Shown: piece after piece, positions 10,305 through 23,448 of the stretch | Position numbering within the stretch: position 1 is the stretch's first letter | How the letters are laid out: the number at the start of each line of letters is the position of its first letter | Source of the DNA: Ketogulonicigenium vulgare WSH-001 | GTDB taxonomy: Bacteria; Pseudomonadota; Alphaproteobacteria; Rhodobacterales; Rhodobacteraceae | Assembly (NCBI RefSeq): GCF_000223375.1 | Contig: NC_017384.1 | Span: forward strand, 1,182,097 to 1,246,096 | DNA length: 64,000 nucleotides | Direction: 5' to 3' | Program-made: the position numbers and the translations under genes | The notes under the pieces: generated by a model | Seen by the model: the letters and a program-made list of their open reading frames with translations, nothing else | The model's database searches: none | What the model was told of the DNA's origin: nothing

Positions 10305-11045
10305 CTACCAGCGGATCACCAAACGCTCGATCAAGGTGACGATCCCAACCAGCACCAGCGATGTCAGCGCCGAGATGAAAATCGCGGCCCACATCTGCGA
10401 CAGGTTCAGGAAGTTCGTCGCCAGCACAATCGTCGCGCCCAGACCCTTCGACGTGCCCATGAACTCTGACACGACCGAGCCGACCATGGCCGAGATGATC
10501 GATAGCTTTGCCCCCGCGAACAGATGGCCAAGGCTGCTGGGCAGGCGCAGGCGCAGGAAAATCTCGGTGCGGCTTGCCGACAGGGCGCGGAACAGGTCAT
10601 GCGCCTCGCGGTCAATCGCGCTCAGGCCCGCCATCGCATTGATCAACATCGGGAAAAATGCGGCGATGCTAGCGACGATTATATGCGGGATCGCGTTAAA
10701 GCCAAAAGCGACGATCAAGGCAGGCGAAATTGCGACCACCGGCGTCACATTCAGCAACAGCGCCACCGGAATGATCGCCATCCGCAAAAAGCCAAAATAG
10801 ACCATCAGCACCGACAATATCACCGCAGCGCCCGCGCCAAAGGCGAATCCGATCAAAGCATTCGACAGTGTCGCCCATAGGTTTACAGCGTAGAACAAGG
10901 GCCTGCGGGCGAATTCCGCCGTGATATCGCCAAACGGCGGCAGGATTGACCGCAGGTTCTGCGCCACCCACTCCCACCCCAGATAGAGCGCCCCAAAGAC
11001 CAGCAGAGGCGCGATAATGCGGTAGATCACGTCGCGGCTGATCAT
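10305..11045 (-). CDS. ABC transporter permease (NitT/TauT/THI-type)
   Basis: A 246-residue inner-membrane permease with about six helices and the BPD-type coupling loop in the region with sequence EAHDLFRALSASRTEIFLRLRLPSSL. It belongs with the SsuC/TauC/ThiX class, whose binding proteins have the NMT1/THI5 fold. Its ATG overlaps the TGA of the ATPase gene (ATGA), giving translational coupling. It is the last gene of the unit binding protein-ATPase-permease. The substrate cannot be read from the permease. Context suggests a small nitrogen-containing compound feeding the enzymes encoded at 13293-22370. Confidence 0.9.
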   Translation of the reverse strand: MISRDVIYRIIAPLLVFGALYLGWEWVAQNLRSILPPFGDITAEFARRPLFYAVNLWATLSNALIGFAFGAGAAVILSVLMVYFGFLRMAIIPVALLLNVTPVVAISPALIVAFGFNAIPHIIVASIAAFFPMLINAMAGLSAIDREAHDLFRALSASRTEIFLRLRLPSSLGHLFAGAKLSIISAMVGSVVSEFMGTSKGLGATIVLATNFLNLSQMWAAIFISALTSLVLVGIVTLIERLVIRW

Positions 11046-11863
11046 TCATCCGCCTCCCAACCTTGACGCAGGATATGCTGCACTTCGCGCACCTTGGCGG
11101 CGAATTCAGGGCTATCCAGCACCGCGCGCCCGCGCGGGCGCGGCAGGTCAATGTCGACCACCGCATGAACACGCCCCGGACGCGGGGTCATAACCACAAC
11201 TTTGTCCGATAGCAACACAGCCTCGAGCGCGGAATGTGTCACGAAAATGACGGTTTTACGCTTTCTTTCCCAGACATCCAGCAGCCGCAGGCGCACGGCA
11301 TCGCGGGTCAGCTCGTCCAGGGCGGAAAAGGGCTCGTCCATCAACATCAGCGGCGCGCCCTGCACAAAGCCGCGGGCGATCGCGGCGCGCTGGCGCATTC
11401 CGCCCGACAGTTGCGCGGGCCGCGCATCCGCAAAATCGGCAAGGCCAAGATCGGCCAGCACCTGATCGGCATCCTCGGGCAGACGTTTACGCACCCCCGC
11501 CAAATGATCTGCCGCACGGTTCACCATCTGCGACAATTTCACATTGGCGCGGATCGACAGCCATGGCAGCAGCGCCGCGCTTTGCGGCACCCAGGCAATA
11601 TTCTTGGCCCGCGTCGCCTGCTGCGGCGTCTCGCCGAACAGGCTGACATCGCCGCTGTCATGCGTCTCTAGCCCAGCCAGGATGCGCAAAAGCGTGGTCT
11701 TGCCGCAACCCGATGGCCCGAACAGGGTGACAAATGTCCCCTCGCTGAACGACAGATTCACATCCGACAACGCGCGCACGGTCTGATCCCCACGCGTATA
11801 GGTCTTGCTGAGGTTATGGATCGCGATTTTCTGGCCGCTGTCAGCGCTGACGCCGTCATGCAT
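11042..11863 (-). CDS. ABC transporter ATP-binding protein (NitT/TauT-type)
   Basis: A 273-residue nucleotide-binding subunit. Walker A GPSGCGKTT is at about 49-57. The Q-loop segment WVPQSAALLPWLS, signature LSGGMRQR (152-159), Walker B LMLMDEPFSALD (about 172-183) and the H-loop in FVTHSALEAV are all present, so it should be a competent ATPase. It is separated from the binding-protein gene by 90 bases that contain a stem-loop, and overlaps the permease start by four bases. Confidence 0.93.
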   Translation of the reverse strand: MHDGVSADSGQKIAIHNLSKTYTRGDQTVRALSDVNLSFSEGTFVTLFGPSGCGKTTLLRILAGLETHDSGDVSLFGETPQQATRAKNIAWVPQSAALLPWLSIRANVKLSQMVNRAADHLAGVRKRLPEDADQVLADLGLADFADARPAQLSGGMRQRAAIARGFVQGAPLMLMDEPFSALDELTRDAVRLRLLDVWERKRKTVIFVTHSALEAVLLSDKVVVMTPRPGRVHAVVDIDLPRPRGRAVLDSPEFAAKVREVQHILRQGWEADE

Positions 11864-11895
11864 GTGAGGGTCTTTCCAAAAAATACACTTGGCGC

Positions 11896-11922
11896 CGATC
11901 TGCCCATACCACGGGCAGATCG
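11896..11922 (-). promoter_or_regulatory. Intercistronic stem-loop between binding protein and ATPase genes
   Basis: A perfect 10-bp stem (CGATCTGCCC, loop ATACCAC, partner 11913-11922). On the minus strand a run of six T follows about ten bases later. Such hairpins after binding-protein genes usually stabilise the upstream mRNA and reduce expression of the ATPase and permease; partial termination is also possible. Confidence 0.6.
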
Positions 11923-11953
11923 TCTAACCATCAGCCTCTGTCAATGACCAGCT

Positions 11954-13027
11954 TTAGGGCGCGGGCCAGATCAGCGCGCCCGCGTCATCATAGATCGCAT
12001 CAATATAGGCGGTTGTCATGGCGCGGCTGATATCGGGCGCCGCGCGCACAATGCCAAAGCGTTGCAGCATATCCGCCTCGGGCTGCCATTGCGCGACGCT
12101 TTGCTGGCCGAAACCCCAACCGTCGGGCTGGCTTTCGGCGATGATCGCAGCCTCGGCGTTGAAACGAATACGCGACATATCAATGTCATAGCCAGCGGTC
12201 GATAATTCGGCCGCCCAAGCGAGGGCCTGATCAAGATGCGCCTGATCTTCGCGCATCCATTCATAGGCCTTGAATGAGGCGCGCAAGAAATCCTCGATCA
12301 CGGTCGGGTTGGCGGCGGCAAAGGTGGCGTTCGCGATCTGGGTGTTAAAGGTCGAATGGATGCCAAAGGCATCGGGATTCCATTCGGTCACCGCAAAACC
12401 CTGCCGCGCCAGATCATAGGGCTCGTTCGATTTATAGGCGGCAAGACCCTGCACCTGACTATTGGGCAGAATGATCGGATCATAGCCGACCGAAACCCAA
12501 TTGATATCCTCGGGGTTCACGCCATTGTCCTGAAACATGGCCGAGAATTGCGGCGGGATGGCGCCTTTGTAACCAACTGTTTTACCAGCGAAATCCGCAA
12601 GGCTTTCAATGCCGCTGTCGGCCATGGTCAACAGCTCGATCGCGCCGACATTGCCATAGGTCGCAATGCCGATGATATCGGCGCCGTTATCAATCCCCAA
12701 CATCGTATCCGAGGCACCACCCACGCCGCCCAACTGCGCGGTATTGGCCGAGATCAGTTGGATATTTGCACCGCCCGGCTGCATCGTCAGATCGATGCAC
12801 AGCGCCTCGAACAGGCCCAGTTTTTGCGCGGCCAGCACATCCAGAATACCATGCGAGGCCGCATAGCCAAAGGATGTCAGAAAGATCACTTCGCCCGGCG
12901 CTTGGTTCGCGGCGCAGCGGTCGGGGCTGATATCTTGGGCCGTCGCCGCCAACGGCAGCAGCCCTGCCCCAGCGAGTGTGATGGCAAGCACGCTGGTCTG
13001 CGGCAGCGAAAAGAGGGCGGGTTTCAT
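11954..13027 (-). CDS. ABC transporter substrate-binding protein, NMT1/THI5-like
   Basis: A 357-residue periplasmic protein with a Sec signal peptide (hydrophobic core about 12-26, likely cleavage after ATA near residue 30). The mature domain has the NMT1/THI5 fold used for pyrimidines, thiamine precursors, riboflavin, taurine and aromatic sulfonates. Visible markers are FLTSFGYAASHGILDVLAAQ near the N terminus, GGANIQLI and VGYKGAI. The ATG at 13027 follows a good AAGGGA; the frame is open further upstream but that part is not plausible protein. It heads the binding protein-ATPase-permease unit. The ligand is unknown; neighbouring enzymes make an amino-heterocycle or its glycoside a reasonable guess only. 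Confidence 0.88.
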   Translation of the reverse strand: MKPALFSLPQTSVLAITLAGAGLLPLAATAQDISPDRCAANQAPGEVIFLTSFGYAASHGILDVLAAQKLGLFEALCIDLTMQPGGANIQLISANTAQLGGVGGASDTMLGIDNGADIIGIATYGNVGAIELLTMADSGIESLADFAGKTVGYKGAIPPQFSAMFQDNGVNPEDINWVSVGYDPIILPNSQVQGLAAYKSNEPYDLARQGFAVTEWNPDAFGIHSTFNTQIANATFAAANPTVIEDFLRASFKAYEWMREDQAHLDQALAWAAELSTAGYDIDMSRIRFNAEAAIIAESQPDGWGFGQQSVAQWQPEADMLQRFGIVRAAPDISRAMTTAYIDAIYDDAGALIWPAP

Positions 13028-13232
13028 CTGGGGTCCCTTTGGGTGTGACGACAATAGTCCAACATGCCGTCCCGGCCTATGCACCTGCTGTGCGATCTGC
13101 CCGGAAGCGTCGGGAACAGGTTAACCCGCGCGCGCGGGCGCGGCAATAAAGTGATGAAAGCACAATGCGCTGCAGACCAAAATCAAACATATTCCGCCGC
13201 ATTCGAACATTACGGCGTGCGTTTTGCGCAGT

Positions 13233-13269
13233 AAAAACACAAAAGCCGGACATCATCCAATGCCCGGCT
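13233..13269 (-). terminator. Terminator after the BtpA-family gene
   Basis: Minus-strand stem AGCCGG/CCGGCT with a 14-base loop, followed by TTTTGTGTTTTT. It separates the SDR-BtpA unit from the promoter region of the ABC binding-protein gene. Confidence 0.65.
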
Positions 13270-13292
13270 GCGCAAGTGATGCTTTTTGCAGC

Positions 13293-14099
13293 TTAAATGC
13301 GCGTTGCTTTGACGATGGCCATAAAATCTTTCGCGCGCTGCGGATCAACGGCGTTCCAGGTGTGCCCCTCGACCTTCAGCGACGAGCCGACAATACAGCC
13401 ATCCGCAATGGCCAGCACATCTTTGACGGTAGCATGTTTTACGCCGGTATTGGCCATCACCGGCACGTCCGGCAGCGCCTTTTTCACACTCTCCAGATCC
13501 TGCATCTTTGCCGCCTCGCCCGTGATTGCGCCCGACACCAGCACCGCATCAGGGATCGACGAAAACACCGCTGAGCGTGCCCGATCGGCCAGCGGACGCC
13601 CGTCTAGCGAATGAGCGAATTCGGCGGAAACATTGTTCAGGATCACCAGATCCTTGCGGTCCAACCGGCGCGCATAGCGCATCGCGCGTCCCGCATTGGG
13701 CGTCCACGGCCCCATATCCGAGGCATAGGTGCCGGTGAAAATCTCGCGCACAAAGGACGCGCCGGTGGCGGCGGCCAGCGCAATCGTCGCATCAGGGTCC
13801 CACAGCACGTTGACACCAAATGGTTTTTTAATCTGATCGCGCAGGCGGCCAATGACAAAAGCCATCGCGGCGGTCGTTGCAACATCGACCTGCAGCTCAT
13901 AGGGACGGTCGTTTTCATTGCCGAACATCACCGCATCGACATCGGCATCCTGCAGCGCCGTCAGGTCTTGCAGCGCGGCCCGGTAAATCCCCTCGATCCC
14001 CGCATCCGCATCATAAAGCGGCGTTCCGGGCATGGGATTCAGGTGCACCATCGCGATGACCGGTTTGATCCCCGGAAACAACTGCGCGAATTTCGTCAT
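13293..14099 (-). CDS. BtpA/SgcQ family TIM-barrel protein
   Basis: A 268-residue protein of the BtpA family. Recognisable are IAMVHLNPMPGTP near the N terminus, GNENDRPY (about 59-66), GVNVLWDPDATIALAAATGA in the middle, and near the end PVMANTGVKHATV and GCIVGSSLK, a phosphate-binding pattern like that of TrpC-type barrels. BtpA was named for photosystem I assembly in cyanobacteria, which cannot apply here. Other members (SgcQ) sit in sugar or nucleoside catabolic clusters, which fits this locus. A GGAG lies 8 bases before the ATG. It is 39 bases downstream of the SDR gene. The reaction is unknown; phosphosugar chemistry is my inference. Confidence 0.88.
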   Translation of the reverse strand: MTKFAQLFPGIKPVIAMVHLNPMPGTPLYDADAGIEGIYRAALQDLTALQDADVDAVMFGNENDRPYELQVDVATTAAMAFVIGRLRDQIKKPFGVNVLWDPDATIALAAATGASFVREIFTGTYASDMGPWTPNAGRAMRYARRLDRKDLVILNNVSAEFAHSLDGRPLADRARSAVFSSIPDAVLVSGAITGEAAKMQDLESVKKALPDVPVMANTGVKHATVKDVLAIADGCIVGSSLKVEGHTWNAVDPQRAKDFMAIVKATRI

Positions 14100-14138
14100 T
14101 CATATTCTCCGTAAAAATCCCCTGTCATTGCGGGGGTA

Positions 14139-14939
14139 TCAAGTCATATAGACGCCGCCGGTGACGTTGATCGCCTGGCCGGTCATGAAACGCGCGGCGT
14201 CCGAACAAAGGAAAACCACCACACCGGCGACATCCTCGGGGGTTTCAATCCGGCCTAAAGGGGTCTGCGCAATGTAATCCGCCTGAACTTCGGCGGTGCT
14301 CATACCGCGCAGCTCGGCCTCCCAAACCAATTCGCGTTCCTGCATACCGGTGCGGACAAAGCCGGGGCAGACCGCATTGACGCGGATGCCCTTGGGCGCA
14401 AGCTCGCGCGCGAGGCCCTGCGTCCACCCCACCACCGCGAACTTGCTGGCCGAATAATGCGCCAGCAGCGGCGCACCGACCTTTGCCGCAAGCGAGGCGG
14501 TGTTGACGATCACGCCTTTGTTTTCACTGATGAAATGCCGGGTCGCGATCTGATTGGTCAGGAAGACGCCGCGCGCATTCACATCCATATTGAAATCCCA
14601 ATCCCGATCAGTCAGATCGACCGCCGGTCGCATGGTCGAGACGCCCGCATTGGCGATACAAATATCGATGCCGCCCATCAGCGCCAGCGCCGCATCAAAT
14701 GCGGATTGCACTGAATTCCTCTCGCGTACATCGATTTGCACCGCATGGTGCCCAGCGCCCAGCGCGGATGCCGCCTGCTCTGCCGCCGCGATGTTTAGAT
14801 CAGCGATCACAACGCGCACATTTTGGGCAGCGAGCGCCCGCGCGATGGCCCAGCCGATTCCCGTTGCAGCGCCCGTTATGAATGCAGATTTCCCTGCCAA
14901 TCCCGGATGTTGTTGTTCTGCCAGATCCTGCGCGCTCAT
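14139..14939 (-). CDS. Short-chain dehydrogenase/reductase (SDR)
   Basis: A 266-residue classical SDR. The NAD(P)-binding motif TGAATGIG is at 22-29, NAG at about 97-99, and the catalytic triad is Ser149, Tyr162 and Lys166 (YSASK). The C terminus TGQAINVTGG is typical of polyol or sugar dehydrogenases of the family, and an Asp at the end of strand 2 (VVIADLN) favours NAD over NADP. A GTG start at 14957 is possible. It is divergent from the FGGY kinase gene across about 140 bases and co-transcribed with the BtpA gene. An oxidation of a polyol or hydroxy intermediate in this locus would fit. Confidence 0.92.
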   Translation of the reverse strand: MSAQDLAEQQHPGLAGKSAFITGAATGIGWAIARALAAQNVRVVIADLNIAAAEQAASALGAGHHAVQIDVRERNSVQSAFDAALALMGGIDICIANAGVSTMRPAVDLTDRDWDFNMDVNARGVFLTNQIATRHFISENKGVIVNTASLAAKVGAPLLAHYSASKFAVVGWTQGLARELAPKGIRVNAVCPGFVRTGMQERELVWEAELRGMSTAEVQADYIAQTPLGRIETPEDVAGVVVFLCSDAARFMTGQAINVTGGVYMT

Positions 14940-15079
14940 CAATTCACCACTTTGCACCTACAGGCGATTGCAACCATGTTTCGGATGCAAGCTCAAGAAA
15001 AATGTTTGCAAATGTTCTATTGCGCGAATGATCTCGTTCTGATTTGCTTCAATATGAACAAACTGAACCACGAGCCGCC

Positions 15080-16558
15080 ATGCCTGTCTTTCTGGGTCTC
15101 GATATTGGGACGACATCGACCATCGGGATTTTGATCGATACGCAGGGTCATGTGCTGGCCAGCGCGGCGCTGCCCGTGACGCTTTACACCGATCATCCCG
15201 GCTGGGCCGAGGAAGACCCGCAGCAATGGTGGCGCAACACCTGCGCGCTGATCCCGCGCCTGCTGGCCGAGAGCGGCTGCCGGGCCGAGGAGATTGCAGG
15301 CATTGGCACAGGTGGCATGTTACCTGCGACGATTCTGCTGGACAGTGATGGCACCGTCCTTCGCCGCGCGATCCAGCAAAGCGATGGCCGCTGCGGCGCA
15401 GAGGTCGATGAGATGCGCGCCGCAATTGATGAGACCGCGTTTTTGCGAGCCGCGGGCAATGGCGTGAACCAGCAGTTGGTCGGCGCCAAGATCCGCTGGC
15501 TGACCAAACATGAACCCGATGTCATCGCCCGCGCGACCACCGTGATGGGATCGTATGATTACATCAACTTCTGCCTGACCGGTCAGCGCGTCATAGAACA
15601 GAATTGGGCGCTCGAGGCGGGCGTCATCAATGTCGCCACCGATCAGATCGACCCCGCGCAGGCGGAAATGACCGGCCTGCCCGCGCGCCTGCTGCCACGT
15701 CTTGTCGCGGCGACCGAGATTATTGGCCATGTCACGCCAGAGGCCGCCGCCGCGACCGGGCTTGTCGCGGGCACGCCGGTGATGGGCGGCGCGGCGGATA
15801 TGATCGCCTCTGCCCTTGGGGCCGGGGTGGTGGCCGATGGCGATGTGCTGCTGAAATTCGGGGGCGCTGTCGATATTCTAACCGCAACCGATCAGGCCCT
15901 GCCCGATGCGCGGCTGTTTCTGGATTATCACCTTGTGCCCGGCCTGTGGATGCCGAACGGCTGCATGTCGACGGGCGGCTCGGTGTTGAACTGGTTCGTC
16001 AACACCTTTGCGGGCGGCGTCGCGCCGGTGGATGGATCACGCCATAAAGCCTTGGACAGGATGGCGGCGGAGCGGCCAGCGGGTGCGATGGGACTGACAT
16101 TCCTGCCCTATCTGCTGGGGGAAAAGACGCCGCTGCATGATCCAGATGCAACTGGCGCGCTGGTTGGGCTGACGCTGTCGCATGACCTTGGCCATATCTG
16201 GCGCGCGCTGCTGGAATCCTATGCCTATGCGATCCGCCACCATATCGAGACTTTTACCGATATCGGATACCGTCCGCAGCGGTTCTTTGTGTCGGATGGC
16301 GGTGCAAACAGCGATATCTGGATGCAGATCACGGCGGATGTGCTGCAACAGCCGCTGCAACGCCTGACGGGCCATCCCGGCACCTGCCTTGGGGCTGCTT
16401 GGGTCGCGGCGGTCGGCACTGGCGCGGCAGATTGGGCGGGGATCTCCACCTTCACCACCGCCCAACCGCTGATTACGCCGCGCGCAGATAATAAAGCGGT
16501 CTATGATCAAGGATATGCCGCATTTCGCGCGCTTTATCGCAACCTGAGGGGGGTCTGA
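15080..16558 (+). CDS. FGGY-family carbohydrate kinase
   Basis: A 492-residue sugar or polyol kinase of the xylulokinase-like branch. The N-terminal phosphate loop LGLDIGTTSTIG (about 5-16), the second-domain segment GGAADMIASALGAG and the FGGY signature region FVSDGGANSDIWMQITADVL are intact. It phosphorylates an open-chain sugar or polyol with ATP in the cytoplasm; the exact substrate cannot be assigned. The frame is open for 36 bases upstream but the start at 15080 gives the normal N terminus. Its TGA overlaps the ATG of the amidohydrolase gene, starting a coupled three-gene unit (kinase, amidohydrolase, GGT-like). Confidence 0.92.
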   Translation: MPVFLGLDIGTTSTIGILIDTQGHVLASAALPVTLYTDHPGWAEEDPQQWWRNTCALIPRLLAESGCRAEEIAGIGTGGMLPATILLDSDGTVLRRAIQQSDGRCGAEVDEMRAAIDETAFLRAAGNGVNQQLVGAKIRWLTKHEPDVIARATTVMGSYDYINFCLTGQRVIEQNWALEAGVINVATDQIDPAQAEMTGLPARLLPRLVAATEIIGHVTPEAAAATGLVAGTPVMGGAADMIASALGAGVVADGDVLLKFGGAVDILTATDQALPDARLFLDYHLVPGLWMPNGCMSTGGSVLNWFVNTFAGGVAPVDGSRHKALDRMAAERPAGAMGLTFLPYLLGEKTPLHDPDATGALVGLTLSHDLGHIWRALLESYAYAIRHHIETFTDIGYRPQRFFVSDGGANSDIWMQITADVLQQPLQRLTGHPGTCLGAAWVAAVGTGAADWAGISTFTTAQPLITPRADNKAVYDQGYAAFRALYRNLRGV

Positions 16559-17781
16559 TGTCCTTTGTGATCGACAATATCCAAAATGGCGATCTGCCCT
16601 TTTCTTTGCATATCGAAAATGGCGTGATCGCGGCCATTGGCACAGATAGCGCGATGCCTGCGGACACCGAGCGCTATGACGCCGCCGGGGCGATGTATAC
16701 ACCCGGCTTTGTCGATGCGCATGTGCATCTGGACAAGGCCCTGATCCTCGACCGCTGCGTGATTTGCGAAGGCAACCTGCCCGAGGCCGTGCGCCTGACC
16801 GCCGCCGCCAAATCCGCCTTTACCGAGGATGACGTCTACGCCCGTGCCGAAAAAGTGCTGGAGATGGCCGTGCGCGCCGGCACCCAAAGTATGCGCAGTT
16901 TTGTCGAGGTTGACCCGCGCGCCGGTCTGCGCAGCTTTCACGCCCTCAAACGCCTGCAATCAGACTGGGCCGATATGATCGACCTGCAGCTTTGCGTCTT
17001 TGCCCAAGACGGGCTGACGCAGGAAATGGAGACCTATACATTGATGCGCGAGGCGATGGCCTTGGGCGGCGATGTCGTTGGCGGCTGCCCCTACACCGAC
17101 CCGGACCCCGTGGCGCATGTCAGCTTGATCTTTGATCTTGCGGCGGAATTTAATGCAGACGTCGATTTTCACATCGACTTCAACCTAGATCCCGCAGGCA
17201 CCATCCTGCCCGAGATCATCGCCCAGACCACGGCCCGTGACTGGCGCGGACGGGTGACAGTCGGCCATGCGACCAAATTTGCCGCGTTCACGCCAACGCG
17301 CCGCGCGGAACTGGCGCAGGCGATGGTTGAAGCGGGCATTGCGCTGGTGGTTCTGCCCAGCACGGACAGCTTTTTGAACGGTGATCGCACGGACCCGCTG
17401 CGCCCGCGCGGCATCGCACCCGCGGCCGATATTGCCAGCGAAGGCGTCATGGTCGCGCTGGCCAGCAATAATGTCCAAAATCCCTTTACGCCCTTTGGTG
17501 ATGCCAGTCTGATCCGCATGGGTGGCTATTACGCCAATCTCGACCAGCTTTCCTCGGATGCGCAGATGGAGCATGTGTTCCAGATGATCTGCGAGAACCC
17601 CGCCCATATCGTGCGGGGCGGCCCGGTCAGTCTTGCGGTGGGCGCGCCTGCCGATTTCATCCTGATCGCGGCACAAAGCCGGTCCGACACCATTCGCGCG
17701 AACAGGCCCGTTATGGGCATCGTCAAAGGCGGGCGCATCCGCCTATGGGCGCCGCAGCCCCCCCTGACCCGAGGCTTTTGA
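16558..17781 (+). CDS. Amidohydrolase, cytosine-deaminase-like, with altered active site
   Basis: A 407-residue amidohydrolase of the COG0402 type. The metal-binding HxH is His55/His57 (FVDAHVHLDKA); His205 (DFHIDF) and His237 (VGHATK) are also kept. Compared by eye with E. coli cytosine deaminase, the residue matching the proton-shuttle Glu217 is Phe208, and the metal-binding, water-activating Asp313 is Asn304 in SNNVQNPFTPFG. The fold and three or four ligands remain but the deaminase chemistry may not. It starts on the last base of the kinase stop and its own stop overlaps the next start. It may be a distinct hydrolase subfamily; the paralogue at 20169-21350 keeps the Asp. Confidence 0.85.
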   Translation: MSFVIDNIQNGDLPFSLHIENGVIAAIGTDSAMPADTERYDAAGAMYTPGFVDAHVHLDKALILDRCVICEGNLPEAVRLTAAAKSAFTEDDVYARAEKVLEMAVRAGTQSMRSFVEVDPRAGLRSFHALKRLQSDWADMIDLQLCVFAQDGLTQEMETYTLMREAMALGGDVVGGCPYTDPDPVAHVSLIFDLAAEFNADVDFHIDFNLDPAGTILPEIIAQTTARDWRGRVTVGHATKFAAFTPTRRAELAQAMVEAGIALVVLPSTDSFLNGDRTDPLRPRGIAPAADIASEGVMVALASNNVQNPFTPFGDASLIRMGGYYANLDQLSSDAQMEHVFQMICENPAHIVRGGPVSLAVGAPADFILIAAQSRSDTIRANRPVMGIVKGGRIRLWAPQPPLTRGF

Positions 17782-19241
17782 TGCAGACCTGTGCCGTCAG
17801 CCCCCACCCGATTGCCACGGCGATCGGCAATGATCTACTGGAACGCGGTGCATCTGCCGCCGAGGCTGCGGTTGCGATCGGGGCCTATCTGTCCGTCGCC
17901 ATGCCCCATTTTTGCGGCATTGGCGGCGATGCGGTTTGGCTGGTGTCGGACGGCGCGGGCCATGTGCAGGCGATCAACGGCATCGGGCAAGCCTTTGATT
18001 TCACGTCTGGCGTCACACAGATCTCGACACGCGGGCCGCAGTCGATCCTGACCACCGCGGCGGCCACCGCGACCTGGGATGCTGCTTTGCAAATCTTTGG
18101 CGTGACGCCCGACCTTGGGATGCTGCTTGGCCCGGCGCAGCAAGCGGCGCGCGATGGCATTCGGGTGACGCCCTCGCAGGATTTCTGGCGCGGGATGCGT
18201 GCGGATGAGATGCAGGACTGGCCCGGCTTTACGCCCTATGCCGGGGCAAAAGCGGGCGATCTGCTGCTGCAGCCCGATCTGGCCACCAGTCTGCAAGCGC
18301 TGATCGACCATGGCCTGTCCAGCTTTCACACTGGCCCCCTGTCACGCCGCATTCTGGATGATCTGCAAAGCCTGGGCGTCGCCGCCACCGCCGACGACCT
18401 TGCCACCACCCGCGCGGCGGTCGAGGCACCGCTATCACTGCCCTATCGCGGCGCCCAGCTTTATGCGCCGCCGCCGCCGACACAGGGCGTGACGACGCTG
18501 CAAATTATGGGGATCTTGGAGCGCCTGAAGACCCCAGCAACCTATCACCTGATGGTCGAAGCGGTAAAATGCGCCTTTCTTGATCGCCCCGCGCTGGATG
18601 ATCAGGCGCAGGTGGCGGATTGGCTGTCGGAGGCCCATCTGACGCGCCTTGCCGCCAACATCGACCCTGTGCGCGCCATGCCTTGGCCGCATGAATGGAA
18701 CAGCGCCGATACTGTCTATTTCGCCGCGCGCGACGCGCAGGGCGGTTGCGTATCCGCGCTGCAAAGCACCTATTTCGATTGGGGCAGCGGCTGCGTTTTG
18801 CCGCAAACGGGGATGATCTGGCACAATCGCGGCGCGGGATTCAGTTTGAACGCTGGCCCCAACCGCCTTGCTCCGCGCCGCCGCCCCTTCCACACGCTGA
18901 ACCCCGGCATCGCGACACGGGACGGCAAGCCGTGGCTGCTTTACGGCACCCAAGGGGCGGACGGGCAACCGCAAACGCTCGCAGTGATCCTGCAGGCCGC
19001 CATTGACCAAGGCCTGCCCCCCGCGGCCGCGCTATCGGTGCCGCGTTTTCTGCTGGGTCGGACATTCTCAGACGGGCGCGATACGCTGAAACTCGAGCCG
19101 ACAGGGCAAGAGGATGCGCTGGCCGCACTGGGGCATCAGATCAGCCCGATCCCGGCGCTTAGTCAATTGGCAGGTCAGGCCGGTATGATCCGGATCGAGG
19201 CGGCGGTCACCGGCGCGCATGACCCGCGCGGGCGGGTGTGA
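17781..19241 (+). CDS. Gamma-glutamyltransferase family Ntn hydrolase
   Basis: A 486-residue GGT-like protein with no signal peptide, so cytoplasmic, unlike periplasmic GGT. The expected self-cleavage and nucleophile Thr is Thr311 in SADTVYF. The second Thr and the His of the usual TTH motif are Val and Tyr here. Downstream segments GSGC..TGMIWHNRGAGFSL and PFHTLNPG are family hallmarks. Cytoplasmic members of similar size include the oxamate amidohydrolase HpxW of ureide breakdown, so an amide hydrolase role is likelier than glutathione turnover (inference). Coupled to the amidohydrolase by a TGATG overlap. Its stop abuts that of the convergent DeoR gene with no base between. Confidence 0.85.
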   Translation: MQTCAVSPHPIATAIGNDLLERGASAAEAAVAIGAYLSVAMPHFCGIGGDAVWLVSDGAGHVQAINGIGQAFDFTSGVTQISTRGPQSILTTAAATATWDAALQIFGVTPDLGMLLGPAQQAARDGIRVTPSQDFWRGMRADEMQDWPGFTPYAGAKAGDLLLQPDLATSLQALIDHGLSSFHTGPLSRRILDDLQSLGVAATADDLATTRAAVEAPLSLPYRGAQLYAPPPPTQGVTTLQIMGILERLKTPATYHLMVEAVKCAFLDRPALDDQAQVADWLSEAHLTRLAANIDPVRAMPWPHEWNSADTVYFAARDAQGGCVSALQSTYFDWGSGCVLPQTGMIWHNRGAGFSLNAGPNRLAPRRRPFHTLNPGIATRDGKPWLLYGTQGADGQPQTLAVILQAAIDQGLPPAAALSVPRFLLGRTFSDGRDTLKLEPTGQEDALAALGHQISPIPALSQLAGQAGMIRIEAAVTGAHDPRGRV

Positions 19242-20069
19242 TCAATCCGCCTGCCCGACGATCCGCACATCAACGCCGGCATCCGCCAGCGCCTCGGCCA
19301 GATCGGCAGGCGGCGCGGCATCGGTGATGAGAATGGTGATATCGCTCAGATCGCAAATCCGCGTCAGCGACATGCGCTGGAATTTCGACGCATCGCACAG
19401 CACGATCCGCACGGCGGATTGCGTCACATAGACACGCTTTAACTCGCTGTCCTCAATCGAATAATCGAACAGGCCTTCGGTTGTGACACCGGAAATGCCC
19501 AGCACCGCGACGTCAAAAAACAACTGCGAAAACTGCGCAACGGCGGTCGGGCCAGTGACCGACATTTCATCATTACGGACAAGGCCGCCGGGCAAATAGA
19601 CCTCGGCCTGCGCCTGTGACAACAGCTGCGCGACGCGCAGCGAATTGGTGAACATCCGTTTGCGCGGCGATTTGTCCATCATCTGCGCCACCAGATAGAC
19701 CGAGGTCCCCACATCCAGCGCAATCGTGCGGTATTGTGTCAAAATGCGCGCGGCCTCTTGCGCGATCAGCTCTTTCGCGCTGCGATTGCGGGCAAAACGG
19801 GCCTCATATTCAGGCTCGATATCGTCAAGAAGCGAGGATGGCGCGCGGGCGCTCGGCACGGCGCCGCCGTGCACACGCTCCAGATAGCCATCCGCCTCAA
19901 GCTCGGCCAGATCGCGGCGCACGGTCATGTCCGAGACGTTGAATTCCTTGGCCAAATCCACGACCGAGACCGAACCGCCCGCATAGAGCCGTTCCAGAAT
20001 CGCGGCAAGCCGGGCCTGTCCGGGCAGTTTTTGACGCTGAGGGTTTGCTTGCCAATCATCGGGCATCAT
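19242..20069 (-). CDS. DeoR/GlpR family transcriptional regulator
   Basis: A 275-residue regulator with an N-terminal DeoR winged helix (RLAAILERL through VSDMTVRRDLAELEADGYLERVHGGAV, about 20-70) and a C-terminal DeoRC sensor domain (ALDVGTSVYLVAQMM, NSLRVAQLL, GISGVTTEGLFDYSIED, VLCDASKF) that normally binds a phosphorylated sugar. That effector type fits the FGGY kinase in the same locus. Two ATGs (20069, 20066) are possible. Its gene lies downstream of the second amidohydrolase with 99 bases between, including an interrupted palindrome that may be its own operator. It probably controls some or all of the four units at 10305-22370. Confidence 0.93.
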   Translation of the reverse strand: MMPDDWQANPQRQKLPGQARLAAILERLYAGGSVSVVDLAKEFNVSDMTVRRDLAELEADGYLERVHGGAVPSARAPSSLLDDIEPEYEARFARNRSAKELIAQEAARILTQYRTIALDVGTSVYLVAQMMDKSPRKRMFTNSLRVAQLLSQAQAEVYLPGGLVRNDEMSVTGPTAVAQFSQLFFDVAVLGISGVTTEGLFDYSIEDSELKRVYVTQSAVRIVLCDASKFQRMSLTRICDLSDITILITDAAPPADLAEALADAGVDVRIVGQAD

Positions 20070-20109
20070 ACGGCGCGGCCTTTACTGCTGGGTGCGGCAA
20101 AACGACGTG

Positions 20110-20121
20110 CGAACACGTTCG
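20110..20121. promoter_or_regulatory. Possible DeoR operator
   Basis: CGAAC-AC-GTTCG, a 5-bp inverted repeat with 2-base centre, sits 40 bases upstream of the deoR-type gene. GAAC or GTTC half-sites also recur in the divergent region before the kinase gene (15013-15075), but no second full copy was found. Confidence 0.35.
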
Positions 20122-20168
20122 TTTTTGTATGATTTTACCCACCCTCAGCGCAAGCCCGACGTTGCGGA

Positions 20169-21350
20169 TCAGCCCTGTAATTCGCCGTCTATCGCAATCA
20201 CCCGCCCGGCTTTGATCACGACCCGCGCAGGCGCGCGATCTGCCACCGCCTCGGCCACAGATGCCGCGCGCGTCAGCACGATATTTCCCGCGTTTCCAAC
20301 AGCAAGCGCAGCATCCCCTCGCCCCATGACCGCCGCAGGCACCGCGCTCACCAGATCATAGGCCAGCGCCAGATCATCATCCGCGCGCATATCCTGACGG
20401 TCGCAAAGAATGCCTGCCCGCTCGACCAGATCGCCATTGCCGAAGGGCGACCACGCGTCGCGGATATTATCATTCGCCGCAAAAACCCGCACACCGGCGG
20501 CACGCAACGCTTTGATCGGCGGCATCGGCACCGGGCCAGGGGCCGAGGTCATGATCGACACCTCTGCGCGCGCCAGTACATCGGCGAGCTGTGCAAACCG
20601 CGCAGGCTCCAGCGCGCCAAGGCTAAAGGCATGACTGACGTTCACGCGGCCTTGCAGACCCAGCGCGAGGGTGCGCAAAGCGATCTGCTCTAGTTCGAAT
20701 GCGCCCAGTTCTGCCGCATCATGCAGGTGAATATCGACGCCGATACCGTATTTTTCGGCGATACCAAAAACCACGTCCAAATGGCCAGCAACGTCGCCAT
20801 CAATACCCGCAGGATCAAGGCCGCCGACCAGATCGACACCTGCCGCAATCGCCGCATCCATCAGTGCCGCCGTGCCCGGATCGCGCAGGATGCCCGACTG
20901 CGGAAAGGCAACAGTCTGGATGTCGACCAAATGACCGTGGCTTTCGCGCAAGGCCAGCACCTGTTCGACATTGGCAAGGCCCGCTTCGGTATCAATGTCG
21001 ATATGGCTACGCACGGCAACGGTGCCAAGACTGGCAAGCCGTTCCAGCAATTTCCCGCCCCGGACACGCACCGGCAGATCAATCGTGCGGCGCAGGTGTC
21101 GCTCGGCCGCGATGCGCTCGGCCACGCTGCTGCCGGGGATATGCGGGATAAACGGCAGCCCGATCAGTGTCTTATCCAAATGAATATGCGCATCGACCAG
21201 CGCGGGCAGTGCAAGGCGCCCGCCCGCGTCAAAGCGGGGCGTGCCCTCGGGCGCGGTGACATCCGCGCCCATCGCGGCGATTTTGCCGCCCGTGATCAAA
21301 ATGGCGCTGGCCGCTGGCAGGCGCAGATTATGGATGAACAGGTCGCTCAT
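20169..21350 (-). CDS. Amidohydrolase, cytosine-deaminase-like
   Basis: A 393-residue COG0402 amidohydrolase, paralogous to the protein at 16558-17781. Metal ligands are His55/His57 (LVDAHIHLDKT), His208 (DIHLHD) and His240 (NVSHAFS). Asp294 in ANDNIRDAWSPFGNGD matches the catalytic Asp of cytosine deaminase. The residue at the Glu217 position is Asp211, a conservative change. It should be an active hydrolase or deaminase of an amino-substituted cyclic compound; the exact substrate is unknown. Its ATG overlaps the stop of the frameshifted upstream gene (ATGA), so the frameshift may also lower its translation. Confidence 0.9.
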   Translation of the reverse strand: MSDLFIHNLRLPAASAILITGGKIAAMGADVTAPEGTPRFDAGGRLALPALVDAHIHLDKTLIGLPFIPHIPGSSVAERIAAERHLRRTIDLPVRVRGGKLLERLASLGTVAVRSHIDIDTEAGLANVEQVLALRESHGHLVDIQTVAFPQSGILRDPGTAALMDAAIAAGVDLVGGLDPAGIDGDVAGHLDVVFGIAEKYGIGVDIHLHDAAELGAFELEQIALRTLALGLQGRVNVSHAFSLGALEPARFAQLADVLARAEVSIMTSAPGPVPMPPIKALRAAGVRVFAANDNIRDAWSPFGNGDLVERAGILCDRQDMRADDDLALAYDLVSAVPAAVMGRGDAALAVGNAGNIVLTRAASVAEAVADRAPARVVIKAGRVIAIDGELQG

Positions 21351-22370
21351 GTGATCAACCCCACGCGACGGGCTGCGACCACCTGATACAGCGGATCGCC
21401 CCAGATCTGCTGTTCCTGATAGGCTGAAAAGGTCAGGCTGATGTCATGCTCGTCATCCGAAGCGCAAGCGGCTGCGAAAATCGCGGGCCAGTCAGGCGCG
21501 GGGGTCTGGCGCATCACCTCTAACGCCTCGGCTGTCGGCAAGGTCGGAAAGCCGATTTTGGGGATCAGCGATGCGATGATCGCCCAAAGCACCGGATAGA
21601 GTGGCATCGGATCATCCAGATGCGGCGCGATCGTGCGCAACCAGTGGAGGCCGGTGACCGCGTGCAGCGCTGAAAAATCCATCGTCTGCGCATAAAGCGC
21701 AAGGGCCGCAGCCGCCATTTGTCGCGGCGTATCGGGCACCATATCAAGGCTGCCAGCGAGGCTAGCAAAGCCCGGCAAGCCGCAAACCGCGCGGATATTG
21801 TGCCACAGCAGGTCAACCTCGACCTGATAGCTATCCGCGCCGGGCAGCGTGTATACACCCGTGATCACATCCAGCGGATCATGCGTACGGGCGGTCGCGC
21901 TGTGATCCAGCGGCACGTGCAGATAGGTCGCGGCCCAATAGCCCAGCGCGTGGCCTATCTCTGCCGTATTGCCGCCAATGACGCCGTAAGCCATGCGCAT
22001 CAGCGGGTGAATCGCACTGCCTGCCATGCCCTGCGCCATTTCGGGCAGGTACAGGCGGATCGCGCCGTCCGGCCCAAGACGCGCGGCCTCGGCGGTGAAA
22101 AAAATCGCGCAGGTCCGCCTCGCGCGCGCGATCGCCCAGCGCACCGCGCCAGGTGTCGGCGTTTAGCGTGCCTTGCGGCGGGGCCTGCGGGGGCACGTTT
22201 TTACTGGCGACATAGGCCGCATACCAATCGGCAATCCGCGCATTTGATGCCCCCATCTGGCGCATCGCCTCGAGCACCATCGGGGCGTGGTTTGCCAAAA
22301 GATATGGAAATTCAAAGGAATCCCTCTGCGCGCGGATAAAGGCGGGCCCATGGGGCAAAAGGGCGGTCAT
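21347..22370 (-). pseudogene. Questin oxidase-like (DUF4243) gene with a frameshift
   Basis: Two minus-strand frames together encode one questin-oxidase-like/DUF4243 protein of about 340 residues. The first part starts at the ATG at 22370 (MTALLPHGPAF, then LANHAPMVLEAMRQMG) and runs to LRDFF. The second resumes at TAEAARLGPDGAI and runs to 21347. The switch occurs at a run of seven A on the plus strand (22098-22104); six would restore one frame. Family members include Baeyer-Villiger-type oxygenases of fungal polyketide pathways, but bacterial roles are unknown. The rest of the frame is undamaged, so this is either a recent mutation, phase variation or a homopolymer sequencing error. It is first in the unit with amidohydrolase and DeoR. 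Confidence 0.8.
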
Positions 22371-22774: not shown

Positions 22775-22810
22775 ATGTTGAATACGTCCAAACGTCCGGG
22801 GGCATTTTAA
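22775..22810 (+). CDS. 11-codon leader ORF coupled to ribE
   Basis: An ATG with a strong ribosome-binding site (GAAGGAG, 6 bases away) opens a frame of 11 codons (MLNTSKRPGAF) whose TAA shares its last A with the ATG of ribE (TAATG). ribE itself has no separate good ribosome-binding site. The simplest reading is that ribosomes load at the leader and re-initiate on ribE, so that the riboswitch gates ribE by masking the leader site. The peptide itself probably has no function. Not verified by conservation. Confidence 0.55.
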   Translation: MLNTSKRPGAF

Positions 22811-23448
22811 TGTTTACCGGCATTGTCCAAAATACCGCCCCCGTTTTGCGCGCGACGCGCGGCAACGAGGTTCTGACATTCGCGCTGGGGATGACCCCGG
22901 CGATGATGGACGAGCTGAAAATCGGTGCGAGCGTGGCGATCGAAGGTGTCTGCCTGTCGGTCACCAGTATCGGTGCAGATTTCGCCACATTCGATGCGAT
23001 GCTGACCACGCTCGAGCGGACGAATCTGACCAAGATCGACGCGGGCATTGCGCTGAATGTCGAACGCTCGATGAAGCCTAATGACGAAAATGGCGGGCAT
23101 GTGGTTTCGGGTCACGTCTCAACCACTGCCGAGATTGTCGAGATCGAACTGGAGGGCCCCAAAGCCCGCATCAGTTTCCGCGTTGGACCCGAATGGGCCA
23201 AGTATATCTTTGTGCGCGGGTTTTTGGCGATCAACGGCTGCAGCCTGACCGTTGCGGATCAGATCGAGGATGGCGAGGATACGATCTTTACCGTTTATCT
23301 CATCCCCGAAACCATCCGCTCGACCACCTTTGCCGCCTACCGGCCCGGCGATCACCTGAATATCGAGGTCGAGCATCAGACCATGATCATGGTCGAGGTG
23401 ATGGAGCGCACTCTGACCCGCCTGCTGAAGGGCAAAGGGCTGGTCTAG
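22810..23448 (+). CDS. ribE: Riboflavin synthase (alpha subunit type)
   Basis: A 212-residue protein made of two lumazine-binding repeats (about 1-97 and 98-212). The N terminus MFTGIVQ, the segment ASVAIEGVCLSVT in repeat 1 and the matching FLAINGCSLTVAD in repeat 2, plus GGHVVSGHV and LIPETIRSTT, are all present. It dismutates two 6,7-dimethyl-8-ribityllumazine molecules into riboflavin and a pyrimidinedione. It is preceded by an FMN riboswitch and a coupled leader ORF. No ribD, ribBA or ribH is adjacent, so the pathway is split. Its stop overlaps the stop of the convergent holC by four bases. Confidence 0.93.
   Translation: MFTGIVQNTAPVLRATRGNEVLTFALGMTPAMMDELKIGASVAIEGVCLSVTSIGADFATFDAMLTTLERTNLTKIDAGIALNVERSMKPNDENGGHVVSGHVSTTAEIVEIELEGPKARISFRVGPEWAKYIFVRGFLAINGCSLTVADQIEDGEDTIFTVYLIPETIRSTTFAAYRPGDHLNIEVEHQTMIMVEVMERTLTRLLKGKGLV

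Follow-up and report, generated by a model that had tools for sequence, protein, structure and literature searches.

What compound might be served by a set of eleven genes that joins an importer to sugar enzymes and nitrogen-ring hydrolases is the question raised by positions 10305–22370 of a 64,000-nucleotide window of the Ketogulonicigenium vulgare WSH-001 genome (3.28 Mb in three contigs; window C1:1182097–1246096). A first-pass annotation had proposed the import of a sugar- or polyol-linked nitrogen heterocycle, phosphorylation of the sugar part and opening of the ring, and could match the set to no described pathway; no described pathway matching the gene set was found among the open-licence PMC papers listed either. 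Ten of the genes are open frames and one is frameshifted, as judged from the open reading frame (ORF) list and profile scans, and all of the gene families originally named were recovered at their positions by Pfam and NCBI profile scores. The locus is a partly broken copy of an uncharacterised degradation cluster that is more complete on Rhizobium plasmids. It comprises two modules: a sugar module, with a short-chain dehydrogenase/reductase (SDR), an FGGY kinase, BtpA and DeoR; and a ring module, with amidohydrolases (AH1 and AH2), a gamma-glutamyltransferase (GGT)-like hydrolase and oxidases. The general idea of a sugar- or polyol-linked heterocycle is still the best fitting, and the set does co-occur elsewhere; a fixed unit is spoken against by the ah1–ggt pair, which is also found without the sugar module. 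To this the present analysis adds that the polyol is probably ribitol, that the modules are separable, and that the window copy is incomplete.

Comparison of gene neighbourhoods, the check that the first-pass annotation had suggested, found the set in a congener and in seven Rhizobium plasmid clusters (L128, L132, L134, L136, L138 of strain ACO-34A, L141 and L170). The seven were hand-picked from plasmid hit lists, several for two neighbouring hits, and seven of seven is accordingly no random sample. All of them contain the SDR, FGGY kinase, BtpA, GGT-like hydrolase, AH1, questin oxidase, a flavoprotein and a CUT1 sugar importer; alignment finds AH2 and DeoR in six, and the seventh has annotated, unaligned counterparts. 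Two isochorismatase-type amidases and an AtzF-type gene accompany these in four of the clusters, and an 8-oxoguanine-deaminase-type gene, sited between AH2 and AH1, in the other three. Gene order differs from cluster to cluster, with the sugar and ring modules interleaved, and in L141 and L170 several genes are split over frames. The ACO-34A plasmid holds relatives of all eight non-importer window genes within ~22 kb, at 43–71% identity, and there the importer genes, two isochorismatase-type amidases, an allophanate hydrolase, AH2, GGT and AH1 are closely successive on one strand. The questin oxidase gene is rare, being matched at E 1e-20 in three of 385 alphaproteobacterial genomes, K. vulgare itself counted.

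The second Ketogulonicigenium species (G149) has the same gene order, and because the two loci are co-linear at 72–90% protein identity, the arrangement in K. vulgare is not due to chance. In the congener the questin oxidase gene is a single open frame of 341 amino acids directly adjoined by a flavoprotein gene (50% identity to the Rhizobium flavoprotein), and a HAD-type (phosphatase) gene, 43% identical to the Rhizobium HAD, lies between FGGY and ah1. The window copy is a reduced, incomplete form: fggy and ah1 overlap by one base, the whole 64 kb yields no match at E 1e-8 to either the HAD or the flavoprotein, and the questin-oxidase-like gene, originally listed with the rest of the set, is not intact, its N- and C-terminal parts lying in two frames. 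The questin oxidase domain PF14027 is matched at 42.2 bits, against a cut-off of 27, in this frameshifted gene, and the break lies at a run of seven T on the minus strand (22098–22104).

These losses suggest that the locus in this industrial vitamin C bacterium is possibly part-inactive, and could be taken further, to a relic that no longer functions and now plays no part in ring degradation, a reading compatible with the others for the complete cluster. The split questin gene and the unmatched flavoprotein and HAD genes speak for it; the other ten genes have open frames, two flavoprotein relatives (43% and 39% identity) persist elsewhere in the genome, and a frameshift at a seven-T run, seen in one K. 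vulgare strain, could be a sequencing error, so that we consider a relic somewhat unlikely. The two flavoprotein relatives lie at L165:7299–9701 and L166:7463–8914; on a reading of the ORFs, one stands beside a creatininase-type gene and a spermidine-type ATP-binding cassette (ABC) importer, and the other near hydantoinase-A/B-type genes.

A catabolic cluster of modular construction is highly probable. A scan of species genomes for BtpA gave 414 relatives, the best 80 loci of which were kept with up to 10 kb of flank per side. An FGGY match lay in the flank of 71 of the 80 (six of the nine loci without one had less than 12 kb of DNA), and reached at least 50% identity in 16, among which an SDR (at least 60%) was present in 14 and a DeoR (at least 40%) in 15. 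None of the 80 had a match to ah1, ah2, ggt or questin at E 1e-8 within these flanks. Found in this way without ring genes, SDR–FGGY–BtpA–DeoR is a unit of its own, usually accompanied by a CUT1 importer. Partial sets of other kinds were also seen. The ah1–ggt pair occurs without the sugar module in Neorhizobium (L129) and Rhizobium sp. SSA_523; two Rhizobium plasmids (L139, L140) carry a flavoprotein, a creatininase-type gene, a CocE/NonD hydrolase, a questin oxidase and an amidohydrolase, with no BtpA match and no sugar module; and in Salipiger (L133) the sugar module stands near AtzF- and isochorismatase-type genes, without GGT, AH1, AH2 or questin oxidase.

Such separability would suit a nutrient island, in which the sugar module would use a pentitol, free ribitol or another, and the remaining genes one or several nitrogen compounds unrelated to it, all held together only through their usefulness in a shared habitat. 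Of the 80 best BtpA loci, 14 have the sugar module (FGGY at 50% or above, with an SDR) free of ring genes, the questin oxidase and flavoprotein stand free of the sugar module in L139 and L140, as do the closest ah1–ggt relatives of the window (L129, L130), and the Salipiger arrangement adds a further combination. Against an island of this kind are the one-strand succession of importer and amidase genes in ACO-34A and the interleaving of the modules, in varying orders, in seven clusters, the modules having been joined or swapped more than once; on balance we find the island doubtful.

That history can be followed in trees of BtpA, SDR and FGGY, which were rooted at their midpoints and included six of the seven full clusters (L141 was left out, and L132 is absent from the SDR tree). 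In the BtpA tree, the window and its congener group with nine stand-alone modules (98/98), and a separate clade is formed by Salipiger and the six Rhizobium clusters (100/100). The window is likewise separated from the Rhizobium clusters in the trees of SDR (100/98) and FGGY (96/99); the fork joining the window to nine stand-alone FGGY kinases is weak (91/56), and Ketogulonicigenium is not one group in the SDR tree. As the window's sugar module groups with stand-alone ones and not with the Rhizobium clusters, the modules must have been joined or swapped more than once, and the trees, together with the differing nearest relatives of ah1, ah2 and ggt, indicate that the window locus was assembled from, or has swapped, pieces. 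Repeated association hints at a functional link between the modules, and is no proof of one.

The GGT-like gene was uninformative as an anchor by itself, GGT-like matches being present in 135 of 149 family genomes. Twelve loci around the best GGT matches, eleven from other genomes and one from the K. vulgare plasmid paralogue L032, had no match at E 1e-5 to btpA, fggy, ah1, ah2, deoR or questin, only to the ATPase and, in some, the SDR. This paralogue (~50% identity; L032:9088–10593, on a plasmid contig) is outside any such cluster, as is a Paracoccus plasmid GGT (54%). The Neorhizobium pair (L129:11980–16022), annotated codA–ggt, is found beside a Dabb-domain gene, a 2-hydroxyacid dehydrogenase and an amino-acid ABC importer. 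Another BtpA setting is that of Sinorhizobium (L169:10001–10822), where the neighbours are a PIG-L deacetylase, a Gfo/Idh/MocA oxidoreductase and a sugar phosphate isomerase, and where the annotation of the stretch lists no FGGY.

The identity of the polyol is indicated by the Rhizobium importer. The CUT1 binding protein of ACO-34A matches PDB 5iai at E 1.9e-208 over 403 residues, and 5IAI, according to a passage in PMC8468352, contains ribitol at 1.6 Å. The binding protein of the stand-alone module L131 also has 5iai as its best PDB match (E 3e-35); the structure model of the CUT1 binding protein was poor, with a predicted local distance difference test (pLDDT) score of 64. As a ribitol-type binding protein accompanies an SDR and an FGGY kinase, oxidation of ribitol to ribulose followed by phosphorylation is suggested. 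The polyol would thus probably be ribitol, and that the sugar part is some ribitol-type pentitol can be proposed with fair confidence. The best PDB matches are 3ak4 (E 2.7e-108), an entry named quinuclidinone reductase, for the SDR and 3ifr (E 2.1e-158) for the FGGY kinase; the kinase scores 323.8 against the xylulokinase model TIGR01312, below its cut-off of 380.25. Known ribitol utilisation, through an SDR and an FGGY D-ribulokinase of the RbtK type, shares with the locus an SDR, an FGGY kinase and a regulator, and with the Rhizobium relatives a polyol-type ABC importer that has a ribitol-holding PDB relative, but lacks the BtpA and ring-degrading genes that are extra here. The window importer is instead of NMT1 type, and no CUT1 binding-protein match was found in the window locus.

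We know of no activity assigned to BtpA/SgcQ proteins. The window protein exceeds the TIGR00259 cut-off (249.4 against 153.4 bits) and does not reach the photosystem I BtpA equivalog (165.7 against 400). Among PDB sequences it matches, at E up to 1, tryptophan synthase alpha and nothing else (E 0.13). Its structure model (pLDDT 87) falls among phosphate-binding barrels, including MJ1099, GGGPS, ThiE, HisF, KDPG aldolase and TrpF, and on this model BtpA probably acts on a phosphorylated sugar. Its reaction could not be assigned from the fold, many reactions being mixed among the 50 matches listed, all within two Z units. The company of an FGGY kinase in most of the best BtpA loci and, in Rhizobium, of a ribitol-type importer supplies a short list of candidate substrates.

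In the ring module, AH1 falls below three NCBI cytosine-deaminase cut-offs (205.6 against 403, 180.8 against 438 and 150 against 483) and has Asn-Asn in a conserved motif, as do all eight of the other AH1 rows with the motif aligned; this pair presumably sits where cytosine deaminase (CodA) has its catalytic Asp pair, and the activity of AH1 may differ from deamination. The GGT-like protein is below the TIGR00066 gamma-glutamyltransferase cut-off (224.7 against 357.85) and meets that of Pfam PF01019 (299.9 against 27 bits). AH2 exceeds the PRK05985 (NF004636) cut-off of 408, at 488.4, and its best PDB match is 6nbo, named N-isopropylammelide isopropylaminohydrolase. Enzymes of this kind (AtzC) strip an alkylamino group from a dioxo ring, and 6-ribitylaminouracil would, by analogy, be a comparable substrate for AH2. 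The degradation of cyanuric acid and biuret (AtzC, BiuH, AtzF) is a known parallel in that AH2 is nearest to AtzC-type enzymes in the PDB and isochorismatase-type and AtzF genes occur in four of the seven Rhizobium clusters. It differs in that the two isochorismatase-type proteins of L138 (276 and 103.9) fall below the BiuH cut-off of 370, although the L138 AtzF is above its NCBI cut-off; that ISO1, ISO2 and AtzF of L138 have no match in the window at E 1e-8; and that a sugar module is added.

The 8-oxoguanine-deaminase-type gene of the other three clusters, whose product in L134 scores 622.6 against a cut-off of 532, raises the alternative of oxidised purine nucleoside catabolism, for example of 8-oxoguanosine, with the base deaminated and opened and the sugar phosphorylated. 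The biuret/allophanate-type amidases of the remaining four clusters could serve the same end. Neither a nucleosidase nor a ribokinase is annotated in the annotated clusters viewed, however, and an FGGY kinase with an SDR is a better fit to a polyol or ketose than to ribose; 5IAI, the relative of the importer, holds ribitol; and the best long deaminase matches in K. vulgare and its congener are only 27–29% identical. An oxidised purine nucleoside is thus very unlikely. Vicine-type glucosides, considered in view of legume hosts, were dropped because the cluster is also found on the plasmid of an Agave root isolate and in Ketogulonicigenium.

The window importer is not of the ribitol type. Its NMT1/THI5 binding protein has a single PDB match, the N-formyl-aminopyrimidine binding protein 3ix1 (E 3.3e-10), and no relative outside the genus at E 1e-25 among 394 family and 385 class genomes; 21 plasmid records match it, and only that of Maritalea covers at least 80%. 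The Maritalea plasmid has relatives of all three window importer genes in the same order, followed by an NtaA-type flavin mononucleotide (FMN) monooxygenase, a ribokinase, a flavin reductase and a riboflavin kinase, a neighbourhood that looks similar to the Rca cluster. By analogy, the Ketogulonicigenium importer is possibly flavin-type. An N-ribityl heterocycle would fit, since a related enzyme set is fed by a ribitol-type importer in Rhizobium and possibly by a flavin-type one in Ketogulonicigenium. Two riboflavin catabolic clusters, Rca for removal of the ribityl tail and Lum for degradation of lumichrome, are described in PMC12746152. They share with the present set a presumed ribityl heterocycle and several hydrolases, and the window importer resembles that of the Rca-like-looking Maritalea neighbourhood; the difference is that NtaA-type monooxygenase, P450, Rieske and xanthine-oxidase families were unmatched in the ten window proteins scanned. 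PMC12746152 also recounts the old Pseudomonas RF-type route, described there as lacking purified enzymes, where attack on the ring precedes loss of the tail.

Gene content, its conservation, the separability of the modules and the loss of parts from the window copy are established. We tentatively read the K. vulgare locus as what remains of a cluster for the catabolism of an N-linked, ribitol-type heterocycle, which would most likely be flavin- or lumazine-like. An ABC importer would take up the conjugate, with a ribitol-type binding protein in Rhizobium and an NMT1-type one in Ketogulonicigenium; the flavoprotein and the questin oxidase-like enzyme would oxidise the ring; and the amidohydrolases and the GGT-like hydrolase would strip its nitrogen, aided in rhizobia by biuret/allophanate-type amidases or the 8-oxoguanine-deaminase-type enzyme. 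The SDR would oxidise ribitol, or the ribityl part, to a ketose for phosphorylation by the FGGY kinase, and BtpA would isomerise, epimerise or cleave the sugar phosphate for entry to the pentose phosphate pathway, with DeoR sensing a phosphosugar. Whether there is one conjugated substrate, or separate nutrients, is evenly poised, and membership of that substrate in the flavin/lumazine class is, taken by itself, unlikely.

Several points weigh against this conjugate reading. Activities and substrate, like the order of the steps, are predictions, and the K. vulgare copy may be non-working, its questin gene being broken and its flavoprotein and HAD missing from the locus. The ribitol in 5IAI may have come from ligand screening; the ligands of NMT1 proteins are varied; and the Maritalea link is that of one plasmid, at 33–45% identity. 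On the ring side, an amino-substituted ring is suggested by the 8-oxoguanine-deaminase-type gene that three of the seven clusters carry. Genes for cleavage of a benzene ring were not seen in the clusters; riboflavin itself would therefore not be mineralised completely, and a lumazine fits better. The published riboflavin route (PMC12746152) uses other enzymes. The window's ah1–ggt genes are nearest to the pair of Neorhizobium (63%) and SSA_523 (61–64%), against 44–50% to the full clusters, and these pairs have no BtpA, FGGY or SDR match within 12 kb; the pair there must therefore have some other role or work without a sugar module. BtpA is retained in the sugar module that stands alone, and thus need not touch a heterocycle. 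Lastly, six stand-alone modules of Brucella/Rhizobiales type group with the Rhizobium clusters in the SDR and FGGY trees but not in the BtpA tree, and the history is accordingly not simple.

Were the conjugate reading true, rhizobia and their relatives would use vitamin-B2-type compounds by a route for which no description was found, with implications for root-zone signalling by flavin and lumichrome. A bolder form, which we regard as distinctly improbable, is that the complete cluster is the first gene set for a route of ring degradation in an N-ribityl lumazine, 5-amino-6-ribitylaminouracil or flavin, with the ribityl tail harvested by oxidation, FGGY phosphorylation and a BtpA step. This would make BtpA a new phosphosugar enzyme and give the Pseudomonas RF-type route its genetic counterpart.

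Table 1. Genes of the K. vulgare locus in window coordinates, with supporting matches and, where it may differ, the start
Product	Coordinates	Strand	Supporting matches	Start
ABC transporter permease	10305..11045	-	PF00528 82.9 bits; 38% to Maritalea permease	
ABC transporter ATPase	11042..11863	-	PF00005 112.2 bits; 45% to Maritalea ATPase	
NMT1/THI5 substrate-binding protein	11954..13084	-	PF09084 90.8 bits; 33% to Maritalea, nearest plasmid relative	probably near 13048 or downstream
BtpA/SgcQ family	13293..14099	-	TIGR00259; phosphate-binding-type TIM barrel by model	
SDR, proposed ribitol or ribityl dehydrogenase	14139..14957	-	PF13561 207.8 bits; 71% to ACO-34A SDR	
FGGY kinase, proposed ketopentose kinase	15044..16558	+	FGGY_N 189.4, FGGY_C 109.6 bits; 61% to ACO-34A	may be ATG at 15080
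ah1, cytosine-deaminase-type (COG0402-type) amidohydrolase	16558..17781	+	50% to ACO-34A AH1, 63% to Neorhizobium	
GGT-like Ntn hydrolase	17745..19241	+	PF01019 299.9 bits; 49% to ACO-34A GGT, 64% to Rhizobium sp. SSA_523	may be 17781
DeoR-family regulator	19242..20069	-	PF00455 131.5, PF08220 63.1 bits; 46% to ACO-34A DeoR	
ah2, PRK05985-type amidohydrolase	20169..21350	-	NF004636 488.4 bits; 63% to L134, 43% to L138	
Questin oxidase-like gene, frameshifted at 22098-22104	21347..22370	-	C-terminal part PF14027 42.2 bits	

The stop–start junctions are as tight as initially described, with overlaps of 4 bases between permease and ATPase, 1 base between fggy and ah1, and 4 bases between ah2 and the questin gene (Table 1). 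The ggt ORF as listed overlaps ah1 by 37 bases, which becomes a 1-base overlap from its second ATG. A check for a DeoR operator found two intergenic stretches that share one 9-mer only, and no operator is claimed. Beside the cluster lies the riboflavin synthase gene ribE (22804–23448), the product of which is the sole RibE match in the K. vulgare genome at E 1e-20. In the congener, a PdxH/PhzG-like gene (L146:4214–5056) lies between the flavoprotein gene and ribE; in the window, the gap between the questin gene and ribE is too small for such a gene at this locus. The window RibE is 34–42% identical to the RibE of 29 family genomes, the medians among which are 55–76%, and this divergent protein may, judging from its sequence, have been acquired from outside the family.

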